Below, in pieces: positions 1 through 12,841 of a DNA stretch of 64,000 nt; within the stretch, counting starts at the first letter, position 1; each line of letters starts with the position of its first letter. The notes beneath the pieces are model-generated. The model had not been told where the DNA came from, did not search any database, and worked only from the letters and a program-made list of their open reading frames with translations. The position numbers and the translations under genes are program-made. Origin of the DNA: Rubrivirga sp. SAORIC476 (GTDB lineage Bacteria > Bacteroidota > Rhodothermia > Rhodothermales > Rubricoccaceae). The stretch covers positions 1,166,798 to 1,230,797 of the forward strand of contig NZ_MVOI01000003.1 in the NCBI RefSeq assembly GCF_002283555.1, read 5' to 3'.

Positions 1-831
1 GCCGCCGCGCTGGCGGAGCGCGTCGAGCAGGCGCTGCCGGATGGGCGCATCGGCGACCACCGAGCGCTCGGTGGAGCAGAGGGTCCCCCAGTCGAACGAG
101 GTGCCTGTCAGGATGTCGGCCGCCGCCTTCTCCACGTTGGCGCTGCGGTCGACGTAGGCCGGCACGTTGCCCGAGCCGACGCCGTAGGCGGGCTTGCCCT
201 TCGAGTAGGCCGCGCGGACCATCGGCCCGCCGCCGGTGGCCAGGATCACGTCGGTCTCCGGGTGCTCCAGGAGCGCGTTCGTCCCGGCAAGCGTGACCCC
301 GCCTTCGCCGCCACCGAGGCAGGCGATCAGGCCCTCGGGTGCGCCCGCGGCGACCGCCGCCTCGGCGACCACGCGGGTCGCCTCGATCGTGCAGCGGACG
401 GCGCTCGGGTGCGGGCTCATCACGATCCCGCAGCGTGCCTTGACCGAGATGATCGCCTTGTAGAAGGCCGTCGCGGTCGGGTTGGTCGACGGCACGAGCG
501 CGGCCACCACGCCCATCGGGCTGGCGACGGTCCAGACGCTGCCGTCGTCGCTCTTGGCGATGACGCCGGCCGTCTTCATGCCCTCCATCCGCGCGGCCAG
601 CGTCCGGGTCGCGAAGAGGTTTTTCTGCTCCTTGCTCTCGGGCTTGCCGAAGCCGGTCTCGTCGTGGGCCATCTGCCCGAGCCGCTTCGCCTCGGCAGCC
701 CCGGCCTCGACCATGGCCGCAACGATGCGGTCCACGGTGGCCTGATCGGCGGTCTTGAACTGCTTGGTCGCGACGTGCGCCGCGTGGACGGCGTCGCGGG
801 CGTCCTGGATGGAGAGGAGGTCGGCGTCCAT
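1..831 (-). CDS. Acylating (CoA-dependent) aldehyde dehydrogenase, 3' end cut by window
   Basis: The minus-strand frame is open from an ATG at 831 to the window edge and gives the first 277 residues of an EutE/AdhE-type acylating aldehyde dehydrogenase. The family converts an aldehyde plus CoA and NAD+ to acyl-CoA. The translation shows the hallmark SPHPSA segment near residue 140, the glycine-rich ILATGGGPMV, GVGSGNVPAYVDR, and the catalytic cysteine in FDWGTLCSTERS near residue 256. The N-terminus begins at the usual enzyme start (MDADLLSIQDARDAV), so there is no obvious N-terminal encapsulation peptide. The substrate (acetaldehyde, propanal, sulfoacetaldehyde or other) cannot be read from this part. 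The gene diverges from the ATPase gene at 1091. It may belong functionally with the rpiB/pduL-like pair at 11511-12841; that link is inference. Confidence 0.88.
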   Translation of the reverse strand, partial: MDADLLSIQDARDAVHAAHVATKQFKTADQATVDRIVAAMVEAGAAEAKRLGQMAHDETGFGKPESKEQKNLFATRTLAARMEGMKTAGVIAKSDDGSVWTVASPMGVVAALVPSTNPTATAFYKAIISVKARCGIVMSPHPSAVRCTIEATRVVAEAAVAAGAPEGLIACLGGGEGGVTLAGTNALLEHPETDVILATGGGPMVRAAYSKGKPAYGVGSGNVPAYVDRSANVEKAAADILTGTSFDWGTLCSTERSVVADAPIRQRLLDALRQRGG

Positions 832-8118: not shown

Positions 8119-9465
8119 CTACGCCGGAGGCGTGAGCTCGAAGCGCTCCAGGAACTTCGTGTCGAAGTCGCCCGCGACGAAGCGGGGGTCCCGGAGGAGC
8201 TGCTGGTGGAAGGGGACGGTCGTGCGGATGCCCTCGATGATGAACTCGTCGAGCGCGCGGAGCATCTTCGCGATGGCCCGCTCGCGCGTGTCCTCGCGGA
8301 CGATCAGCTTGGCGATCATCGAGTCGTACGTCGGCGGGACGGTGTAGCCCGCGTAGACGTGCGTGTCGCAGCGGACGCCCCGGCCCTTGGGGCTGTGGAA
8401 CGCCGTGATCTTGCCCGGGCTCGGGGAGAAGTTGCGGAACGGGTCCTCGGCGTTGATCCGGCACTCGATGGAGTGGCCCGTGGGCAGGTGGTCGCCCGAG
8501 GTGATCGTCTCGCCGCCCGCGACCCGGAGTTGCCACTCGATCAGGTCGGTGCCCGTGACCTCCTCCGTCACCGGGTGCTCGACCTGGATCCGGGTGTTCA
8601 TCTCCATGAAGTAGAAGTCCCGGTTCTTGTCGACCAGGAACTCGACCGTGCCGGCGCCGCGGTAGTTGACCGCCAGGGCGCCCGCGCGGGCCGCCTCGCC
8701 CATCGCGTCGCGCAGGACGGGGTCGAGGATCGGGCTCGGGGCCTCCTCCAGCAGCTTCTGGTGGCGCCGCTGGATGGAGCACTCGCGCTCGCCGAAGTGG
8801 ACCACCGTCCCCTGTCCGTCGCCCACGAGTTGGATCTCGATGTGGCGTGGCTCCTCGACGAACTTCTCGATGTAGATCCGGCCGTCGCCGAACGCGTTCT
8901 GGGCCTCGTTGGAGGCCGCCACGAACAGCCGCTCGAACTCGTCGGCGTCGTTCGCCATCCGCATGCCCTTGCCGCCGCCGCCCGCAGACGCCTTGATCAT
9001 GACAGGGAAGCCGGCCTCCTTCGCGGCCGCCAGTCCCTCCTTGACGTTCTCGACGGCCCCGTCGGAGCCCGGCACGACGGGCACGCCCGCCGCCTTCATG
9101 GTGTCCTTGGCGACCGACTTGTCGCCCATCGACGAGATCGTTTCTGGGCGCGGCCCGATGAACGTCAGGTCGTGGTCTTGGCAGATCCGCGCGAACTCGG
9201 CGTTCTCGGACAGGAAGCCGTAGCCGGGATGGATCGCATCGGCGCCGGTGACCTCGGCCGCGGCGATGATGGACGGGATCTTGAGGTAGCTCTGCGCGCT
9301 CGGCGCCGGCCCGATGCAGACTGCCTCGTCAGCGAACTTGACCGCCAGTGTGTCGCGATCGGCGGTGGAGTAGACGGCGACCGTCTGGATCCCCATCTCG
9401 CGGCAGGTCCGGATGATGCGGAGCGCGATCTCGCCGCGGTTGGCGATGAGGACTTTCTTGATCAT
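8119..9465 (-). CDS. accC: Acetyl-CoA carboxylase, biotin carboxylase subunit
   Basis: A 448-residue ATP-grasp enzyme that carboxylates the biotin carried by AccB, the first half-reaction of malonyl-CoA formation for fatty-acid synthesis. It begins [21 protein letters not shown], has the glycine-rich ATP-binding loop [12 protein letters not shown] near 160, the [13 protein letters not shown] motif near 230 and [15 protein letters not shown] near 288. Length is canonical. It lies 75 bases downstream of accB with no terminator-like stem, supporting an accBC operon. The carboxyltransferase genes accA and accD are not here. Confidence 0.98.
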
Positions 9466-9474
9466 AGGGAGGGG

Positions 9475-9540
9475 TGCGGGACGGAGGGATGCGGAATGCG
9501 GGCTCTCGGGGAGTCACGCATCACGAACCACACATCACGT
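9475..9540 (-). repeat. Short iterated repeat in the accB-accC spacer
   Basis: Read on the minus strand, the spacer contains two near-direct units CGTGATGTGTG and CGTGATGCGTG, followed by CGCATTCC and CGCATCCC. This is a low-complexity iterated arrangement of the same general style as the repeats at 8060 and 14700. I see no ribosome-binding site in it. Confidence 0.4.
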
Positions 9541-10029
<489 letters not shown>

Positions 10030-10198
10030 GGGACGAGCGGGGCACAGAGGGGAGCCCCAAGCTACGGACGCTCGGGGCGAGGAGAGCGCAGGAGCGTGCG
10101 CGACCCGCAGGTCGGGCAAGGTCCTTCGGGCGTCCCGTCCGCTTTACCCAGCCCGCGCCGCACCCGCGGCGCTCGCTGGGTGCGAGCCGGGCCTGTCC

Positions 10199-11510: not shown

Positions 11511-12176
11511 ATGCCGCGACTCGTCTCCGAACGCACCGTCCTCGACGCCCTCGCTGCGGGCCAGTCCACGCTGGAGGTGCCCGCGGGCGCCCTCGTGACG
11601 GCCCTCGCCCGCGACACGGCGAAGGCCCAGGGCCTCACCTTCGTCACCGGCTCCGGAGCCTCCGCCCCGACGCCCGCCGATCCGGTCCGCCCGCCGAGCG
11701 CGCCCGTGAAGACCCTCGCCGTCGGCTGCGACCACGGGGGGTTCGACATCAAGGATGCCCTCGTGGCCCACGCCACCAGCCTCGGGTGGACCGTCACCGA
11801 CGTGGGCACGCACTCGACCGACAGCGTCGACTACCCCGACTTCGCGTACGCCGTCGCGCGGCTGGTCCACCTCGGGCGCGTGCAGTACGGCCTGATGATC
11901 GACGGCGTCGGCGTGGGGTCGGCGATGGTGGCCAACAAGGTGCCGGGCGTGCGGGCGGCGCTGTGCCCGGACGTGTTCTCGGCGTACAACGCGAAGGCGC
12001 ACAACGACGCCAACGTGCTCACGCTCGGCAGCCGGACGATGGGCGTGGAGGTCTGCAAGCGCGTCCTGGCCGAGTTTCTGGCCGTCCCGTTCGAGGGCGG
12101 GCGCCACGCGAAGCGCGTCGCCAAGATCCTGGACGTCGAGGCGCGCTTCCTGCCCGGCGCGGAGGGCACAGTCTAG
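11511..12176 (+). CDS. RpiB/LacAB-family sugar-phosphate isomerase with microcompartment-like N-terminal module
   Basis: A 221-residue protein. Residues 67-221 are an RpiB fold: GCDHGGFDIK at 72-81, DYPDFA, ANKVPGVRAALC, AHNDANVLTLGSR (His164) and EGGRHAKRV. The catalytic loop, which in E. coli RpiB holds the base Cys and a Thr in a CGTG sequence, is DGVGVGS at 131-137, so both are replaced (Asp131, Val133). Residues 1-65 are an added module (VLDALAAGQ..LEVPAGALVTALARDTAKAQG) plus a Pro-rich linker. The module resembles the C-terminus of the next gene product and, from memory, terminal segments of microcompartment proteins. The stop overlaps the next start (TAGTG). Isomerase activity on ribose 5-phosphate is doubtful. 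Confidence 0.85.
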   Translation: MPRLVSERTVLDALAAGQSTLEVPAGALVTALARDTAKAQGLTFVTGSGASAPTPADPVRPPSAPVKTLAVGCDHGGFDIKDALVAHATSLGWTVTDVGTHSTDSVDYPDFAYAVARLVHLGRVQYGLMIDGVGVGSAMVANKVPGVRAALCPDVFSAYNAKAHNDANVLTLGSRTMGVEVCKRVLAEFLAVPFEGGRHAKRVAKILDVEARFLPGAEGTV

Positions 12177-12841
12177 TGCGCCCCGACGCTCTCCCGGTGC
12201 GCCCCGACGCTCTCCCGGTGCGCCCGCTCGCCTCGCGGGCCGTGCTTCCGCCCGACGCCGTAGCGGCGCTGTTCGGACCGGGGGCGACGCTGCGGCCATC
12301 GGCGACCGCCGAGGTCGTCCGCCTCGGGGAGGCCGTGGGGCGCGTCGCCGTCGAGACCGGCGCAGCGCTAGCGCTCTGGGTGGACGCGACGGACGCGATC
12401 GCGGGCGCCGCCTCCCTGCGCGGCCCCGTCGGAGCCATCGGGCCGGTGACGGCGAAGTCGGTCCGCTCCCGGCTCGTCCTCCCGGACGGGCTCCGTCGCG
12501 CCTGGGGCATCGGCGACGTGGCGACGGTCGGGCTGGGACCGCTCGCGGTCGGCCTCCCGGTCGAGACCGGACCCGAGGTGAGGATAGAGGCCGAGCGCGC
12601 CCTGTGGCTTGCCGCCGACCGGCCCGAGACGGCGCGCTGGATGCCGGGCGTCAACCTCGCGCCCGCCCCCTCCGAGCCGGATGCCGAGGCGGGCGTGGTC
12701 GTGATCGAGCGCCGCGTGGTCACCGAGACCGACGTGCGGCAGGCACGCCTGAAGCACCGCCGCATCCGGCTGACGCCGGGCCAGATCGTGACGCCCGCCG
12801 CACAGACGCTCGGACGGGAAGCGGGCATTTTTGTGGGGTAG
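12176..12841 (+). CDS. PduL-like (phosphate acyltransferase fold) protein lacking the zinc histidines
   Basis: A 221-residue protein from a GTG that overlaps the rpiB stop, indicating translational coupling. LFGPGATL at 32-39 and the downstream pattern (PDGLRRAWGIGDVATV, then ALWLAADRPETARW near 142-155) align with the two-domain PduL phosphotransacylase family. However, the RHVH and RHIH zinc motifs are replaced by SRAV (20-23) and RSRL, and only one histidine exists in the protein (near 184). Residues 181-221 (VVTETDVRQA...IRLTPGQIVTPAAQTLGREAG) form a module like the RpiB N-terminus. Two perfect 21-base repeats at the start give GTG starts at 12176, 12197 and 12218. It may be a structural or regulatory relative rather than an active enzyme. 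Confidence 0.6.
   Translation: MRPDALPVRPDALPVRPLASRAVLPPDAVAALFGPGATLRPSATAEVVRLGEAVGRVAVETGAALALWVDATDAIAGAASLRGPVGAIGPVTAKSVRSRLVLPDGLRRAWGIGDVATVGLGPLAVGLPVETGPEVRIEAERALWLAADRPETARWMPGVNLAPAPSEPDAEAGVVVIERRVVTETDVRQARLKHRRIRLTPGQIVTPAAQTLGREAGIFVG

Follow-up and report, generated by a model that had tools for sequence, protein, structure and literature searches.

Two genes, each encoding a protein of 221 amino acids, lie end to end on the forward strand of the window (the whole stretch of 64,000 nucleotides of Rubrivirga sp. SAORIC476 DNA that was analyzed). The first, rpiB (11511 to 12176), encodes a homologue of ribose-5-phosphate isomerase B recognized by both PF02502 and TIGR01120, and the second (12176 to 12841) encodes a protein of predicted PduL fold with a putative docking module at its C terminus. 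The two share a single base, position 12176, in the sequence TAGTG, with the rpiB stop codon TAG at 12174 to 12176 and the GTG start of the PduL-like gene at 12176 to 12178; the first-pass annotation had placed the genes and their overlap exactly. Stop and start overlap in eight of nine other couplets as well, as judged from inferred starts in the relatives, the ninth (L019) having a gap of about 60 nt, and the two genes are probably translationally coupled. At its 5' end the PduL-like gene carries a 21-bp tandem duplication of 2.4 copies on the same strand (12176 to 12225), which adds seven residues without counterpart in nine aligned relatives; a further GTG, at 12197, could also serve as the start and matches that of the relatives. 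Cut by the window edge is the 5' part of a gene for an acylating acetaldehyde dehydrogenase (AldDH; 1 to 831, reverse strand, TIGR02518), which continues to C3:1165955.

The RpiB protein belongs to its family by TIGR01120 (148.6 bits against a cut-off of 138.65). Its PF02502 match (E 2.7e-49) spans residues 70 to 206, so that about 68 N-terminal residues fall outside the enzyme domain, and the catalytic domain as we delimit it covers residues 69 to 210 (11715 to 12140, forward strand). Asp131 (codon 11901 to 11903) occupies the position of Cys66 in E. coli RpiB, which we take to be the catalytic residue. Asp is found there in all 12 aligned RpiBs of the module-bearing type, and Cys in the E. 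coli enzyme and in all five aligned RpiBs lacking the module, which come from three shell-less genomes and from shell-positive G015 and G017.

Neither Pfam nor NCBIfam recognizes the PduL-like protein at E <= 1, and the initial label of this protein was a guess that profile and predicted fold now bear out. The family profile, A2, matches PduL (5cuo) with E 7.6e-5. With an AF2 model of mean pLDDT 88.2 (13 sequences), Foldseek returned 5cuo as the only match at E <= 0.001 (1.8e-6, two chains; TM 0.58/0.66), and VIA aligned 147 residues to it with a Z of 14.4 and an rmsd of 2.3, the next Z being 6.8. Beneath 5cuo in VIA stand p97 N-domains (Z 6 to 7), a likeness that we read as a common double-psi barrel arrangement. 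As modelled, the protein would have the two-domain PduL fold.

The two proteins have in common a module of about 45 residues, placed at one end in the first and at the other end in the second: N-terminal in RpiB (residues 2 to 47, 11514 to 11651, forward strand; profiles A3 and A7, hhalign, NCBIfam) and C-terminal in the PduL-like protein (residues 179 to 221, 12710 to 12838, forward strand). The recurrence had been read from the window pair, which by itself is not significant: the two modules have 14 identical columns, are not aligned by BLASTP, and their pairwise score is equaled in 236 of 5000 shuffles. An HMM-HMM comparison does align them, however, and makes the recurrence real, with hhalign giving 96% probability and E 4.6e-9 for RpiB N-terminal modules against PduL-like C-terminal modules, ten homologues each. 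When 20 module sequences were compared with the 18,950 NCBIfam models at E <= 1, four models were matched, all of bacterial microcompartment (BMC) families: TIGR02536 by 18 of the 20 (best 5.3e-8, at the model's C terminus in the one member shown), the EutQ model PRK15457 by 8, and two PduM models by 6 and 5. The module HMM also matched residues 2 to 46 of E. coli EutQ (E 2.3e-6, for 19 E. coli proteins with the search space set to 4300). Together with the PRK15457 matches, this indicates that the module is homologous, at the level of sequence, to the EutQ N terminus.

What this homology may mean is suggested by Salmonella EutQ, for which sections of PMC12487888 describe residues 1 to 99 as directing sfGFP to the Eut compartment, the first two helices touching the shell and the next two binding cargo. 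In the AF2 models of both window proteins the module appears not as a single amphipathic helix but as a small folded unit of two short helices and several short strands. On these models the module is a docking domain of the EutQ N-terminal type and not a classic encapsulation peptide, that is, a single amphipathic helix of about 15 to 20 residues on a linker.

Several other relatives of the module were considered and dropped. EutT looks alike by eye, but its match has E 0.06 with a wider profile and 6.2 with A3, and no relationship is claimed. No convincing structure came from searching the PDB with a profile of the module, the best match having E 0.02. A circularly permuted E3-binding (PSBD) fold, suggested by weak matches to PDH E2 in swapped order, was rejected: among five modules that were permuted, two gave E3_binding scores of 22.2 versus 21.9 and 18.2 versus 18.1 bits, and the other three had no match.

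A microcompartment requires a shell, and the genes were expected either to lie outside the window or to be missing, leaving a shell-less remnant. Searching the genome settles this in favor of the first, with two adjacent PF00936 (BMC-H) genes at C6:509845-510388 and three PF03319 (BMC-P) genes, a pair at C6:455372-455919 and a single gene at C4:120702-120974. Its five shell genes, two BMC-H and three BMC-P, thus occupy three places, and a shell-less remnant is excluded for this genome. The couplet is not adjacent to the shell genes in this genome. Of the two outcomes that would have spoken against the idea, neither was seen: the genome does encode shell proteins, and related genomes tie the module to BMCs.

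Evidence for the association of module and shell is apparent across the order. Among its 114 genomes, PF03319 is present in 52, with exactly three matches in 45 of these, and PF00936 in 49, with exactly two matches in 46. A strong module match (E < 1e-9, a threshold set post hoc within a gap in the table from 8.7e-10 to 1.4e-4) occurs in 45 genomes, all of them among the 52 shell-positive ones and none among the 62 that are shell-less. Fisher's test gives p 1e-24 for this co-occurrence, a value that ignores shared ancestry; the pattern tracks family lines, and the genomes are therefore not independent. Weak matches in G049, G062 and G070 (E 1.4e-4 to 0.008), and second weak matches in G032 and G092, were left uncounted. 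A high-scoring RpiB (PF02502 E <= 2e-44) is encoded in just these 45 genomes and in no others. Where a shell-less genome has a PF02502 gene, as 18 do, its RpiB scores lower (E 1e-29 to 1e-35) and the module search finds nothing.

Seven shell-positive genomes have no strong module match. Five of them (G043, G049, G090, G094 and G096) are 70 to 88% complete; four of these five have no PF02502 match at all, and in G094 the PF02502 gene is cut at a contig end. G013 has only a partial BMC-P. G015, a single contig with two BMC-H and three BMC-P genes and no module match, is a real exception.

The module also extends beyond the order. Scanning genome contigs with the PduL-like alignment, whose search patterns fell within the module, yielded 14 loci: five were contigs already found, from the window genome's family (f1) and a second family (f9), eight encode a PduL with a C-terminal module, and one, in a Gemmatimonadota genome, an RpiB with the module at its N terminus. 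The eight PduLs come from eight genomes outside the order, six of which are labelled KSB1, and BMC-P is present in all nine of the outside-order genomes with module proteins that were fetched. PF06130 recognizes both outside PduLs that were scanned with it (L120, E 7.8e-68; L124, E 1.2e-20). Directly upstream of five of the eight is a gene for an acylating-type aldehyde dehydrogenase, as judged by motif and reading, with one of the five also checked against Pfam and NCBIfam; the L127 contig begins at the PduL gene. The aldehyde dehydrogenase of L121 has a 50%-identical protein in the window genome (C3:1166267-1167631), namely the AldDH whose gene is cut by the left edge of the window.

These distributions support the proposal that RpiB and the PduL-like protein are cargo or accessory proteins of a microcompartment, and it is from them that we infer encapsulation. 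To explore what such a compartment might do, we considered three further enzymes of the genome. The closest model to AldDH is TIGR02518, acetaldehyde dehydrogenase (acetylating), at E 9.1e-160 and 532.7 bits, short of the cut-off of 620.1. At its C terminus a linker leads into a short tail, which is similar in the seven f1 sequences read, and a match at E <= 2e-136 is present in all nine genomes of f1, the family that the search covered. DeoC, for which a genome search had been advised, is present at C3:2037580 (TIGR00126, E 5.5e-86), with 61 residues preceding the family domain from the assumed start; a second DeoC-family match, on C4, was set aside as it looks by eye like an FbaB-type aldolase. 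The deoB gene (TIGR01696, over cut-off) precedes the BMC-P pair of this genome by 4.4 kb.

The position of deoB relative to the shell genes was read in 28 loci drawn from the 52 shell-positive genomes and hand-picked across families. In 22 of them it precedes the BMC-P pair in the same orientation, at a distance of no more than 60 nt in 8, and at L169 it overlaps the first BMC-P gene. In the six loci without it, the sequence available upstream is shorter than 3 kb in two and 5.9 to 7.8 kb long in four. Acting together, DeoB, DeoC and AldDH would convert deoxyribose-1-phosphate to acetyl-CoA and glyceraldehyde-3-phosphate. Alternatively, the compartment may serve another pathway, with DeoC, DeoB and AldDH as ordinary cytosolic enzymes. 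Such a pathway would fit with the distance between DeoC and the other candidate genes on C3, with the absence of an assigned signature enzyme for FRAG compartments in PMC8217296, and with the position of deoB in f1, where six of eight loci have it 0.5 to 6.7 kb away from the BMC-P pair and it was not found in the other two, one of which has only 3 kb of upstream sequence. We nonetheless regard it as unlikely, given the same-strand deoB ahead of the BMC-P pair in 22 of 28 loci (within 60 nt in 8), the acetylating acetaldehyde type and C-terminal tail of AldDH, and the N-terminal extension of DeoC.

Returning to the reading of the couplet as cargo, its neighborhood raises the question of whether the module binds something other than a shell. 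A homologue search found the PduL-like protein in 10 of the 114 genomes, the window genome included, and in all 10 its gene directly follows that of a module-bearing RpiB, with both modules present in every couplet. The loci of f1 and f9 (for example L119, in f1, labelled Rubricoccaceae, and L117, in f9, labelled Rhodothermales) have an amidohydrolase gene after the couplet, in the window and, by motif, in eight of nine relatives, and lpd, for dihydrolipoamide dehydrogenase, after the third BMC-P gene in 7/7 loci. Outside f1 and f9 the arrangement is reversed: the lpd motif is found in the roughly 3-kb module-rpiB locus in 17 of 20 cases (L095 to L114), and by reading, amidohydrolase genes adjoin the third BMC-P gene in four of seven loci. 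As rpiB and the shell gene have thus swapped identical partners, the neighbors lend mild extra support to a link between the two.

The same lpd genes can be viewed differently. RpiB, as the sole PF02502 match in the window genome, could be a housekeeping ribose-5-phosphate isomerase, and the module a general protein-protein docking element, for instance for dihydrolipoamide dehydrogenase, with no encapsulation involved; the frequent lpd motif beside module-rpiB and a weak resemblance of part of the module to the E3-binding domain (E 2e-4 to 3e-3, below cut-off) would agree with this. We find the explanation improbable, as strong module matches are confined to shell-bearing genomes both within the order (45/45) and outside it (9/9), the RpiBs of shell-less relatives have no module match, and the E3-binding likeness spans only about 15 residues and is not improved by permuting the module. 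Docking to a shell remains the reading that we prefer.

The PduL-like partner appears to have lost the chemistry of its family. The zinc ligands of PduL, His48, His50, Glu109, His157, His159 and His204, are called absolutely conserved in PMC4784909. We located the corresponding columns through the alignment of profile A2 with 5cuo, aligning 8 of the 10 window-type homologues with seven PduLs from outside the order. None of the six ligands is present in six of the eight, the window protein among them, and L118 and L119 keep only His48, whereas the motifs are kept in six of the seven outside-order PduLs, L124 being degenerate. PF06130 has no match over cut-off in the window protein or the window genome, matches one of the ten PduL-like homologues at E 0.23, and is absent from all 114 genomes at E <= 0.01. 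With most or all of the zinc ligands missing, the protein is probably a pseudoenzyme, and to judge from these alignments it most likely persists as a relic with a structural or adaptor function and does not act as a phosphotransacylase. That it is cargo with activity as a phosphotransacylase, or as a CoA-binding enzyme using another active site, seems to us quite improbable in the face of this ligand loss, even though both PduL domains are retained in a confident model, the first ligand persists in two of eight homologues and some activity would be useful where a PF06130 protein is missing. The absence of a PF06130 phosphotransacylase from the 114 genomes also leaves a gap in the core pathway after AldDH, unless the step that usually follows there falls to another enzyme.

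How does this set of genes relate to known microcompartments? SPU (sugar-phosphate utilization) systems are described in PMC4207490 and PMC8217296 by an enzyme set with a proposed role in handling DNA degradation products. The window genome is alike in having DeoC (PF01791), RpiB (PF02502) and an acetaldehyde-type dehydrogenase in one genome with BMC-H and BMC-P, but unlike in that its genes, including DeoC, RpiB and the shell genes, are at five or more separate places, the PF06130 PduL is missing and the docking domain is not the usual encapsulation peptide. FRAG compartments, according to PMC8217296, have shell genes scattered over the genome, with a BMC-P triplet among them, and lack a signature enzyme; that 2021 catalogue called them enigmatic because their shell genes are mostly apart from known enzymes. 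Dispersed shell genes, three of them BMC-P, and the lack of an enzyme cluster are found here too, a likeness that comes from gene layout and not from the catalogue's shell-type HMMs; the difference is that a candidate cargo and pathway can now be proposed.

The individual proteins have precedents of their own. The shell-docking region at the EutQ N terminus, TIGR02536 and PduM share the apparently homologous module of about 45 residues, but here it is fused to the N terminus of RpiB and to the C terminus of a PduL-fold protein. With PduL phosphotransacylase (PF06130; 5cuo) the window protein shares the predicted two-domain fold, and PduLs of other phyla share the C-terminal module, but its dizinc ligands are lost and PF06130 is blind to it. 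Cargo of microcompartments is a known kind of protein; what sets this case apart is how its genes are arranged, together with a docking domain carried by RpiB and a PduL that has lost its metal site. Among the matches listed in the open-access literature, no paper deals with microcompartments of Rhodothermales or with a docking module on RpiB, and the string 'Rhodotherm' is not in the main text of PMC8217296.

Considering these lines together, we think it likely that the window holds some of the genes of a sugar-phosphate compartment whose genes are dispersed, with RpiB and the dead PduL as docked cargo or adaptor. The docking domain would bind shell tiles and recruit both proteins, RpiB, in which Asp replaces the usual Cys, would handle a pentose phosphate, and the PduL-like protein without its dizinc site would have a structural or adaptor role. 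A broader scenario is plausible but more tentative: a transferable docking domain of the EutQ type may mark the cargo of FRAG-like compartments in Rhodothermales, which would catabolize deoxyribose-phosphate from unlinked genes, the phosphotransacylase having lost its active site in two families and been kept as a docking scaffold, and RpiB having gained a compartment-specific active site (Cys to Asp). The docking domain can be searched for across genomes and so offers a route to unlinked FRAG cargo, flagging RpiB here. Use of deoxyribose-phosphate is suggested by AldDH, by DeoC and by the linkage of deoB to shell genes, which makes the function of the compartment directly testable, and the PduL-like protein would provide a natural PduL pseudoenzyme for study.

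Further features of these loci deserve mention. At L124 the PduL (9359-10135), beside an aldehyde dehydrogenase gene, has lost most zinc-ligand motifs yet is recognized by PF06130. The second BMC-H of the window genome (L007 10114-10605, on C6) has a C-terminal extension of about 70 residues, and apart from BMC neither Pfam nor NCBIfam identifies a domain in this protein; the second BMC-H of relatives likewise lies within longer open frames. Finally, a gene for an AAA ATPase (PF00004; L008 11293-13239) adjoins the third BMC-P gene of the window genome, and the AAA ATPase motif is found beside the third BMC-P in 9 of 14 loci, this one included.
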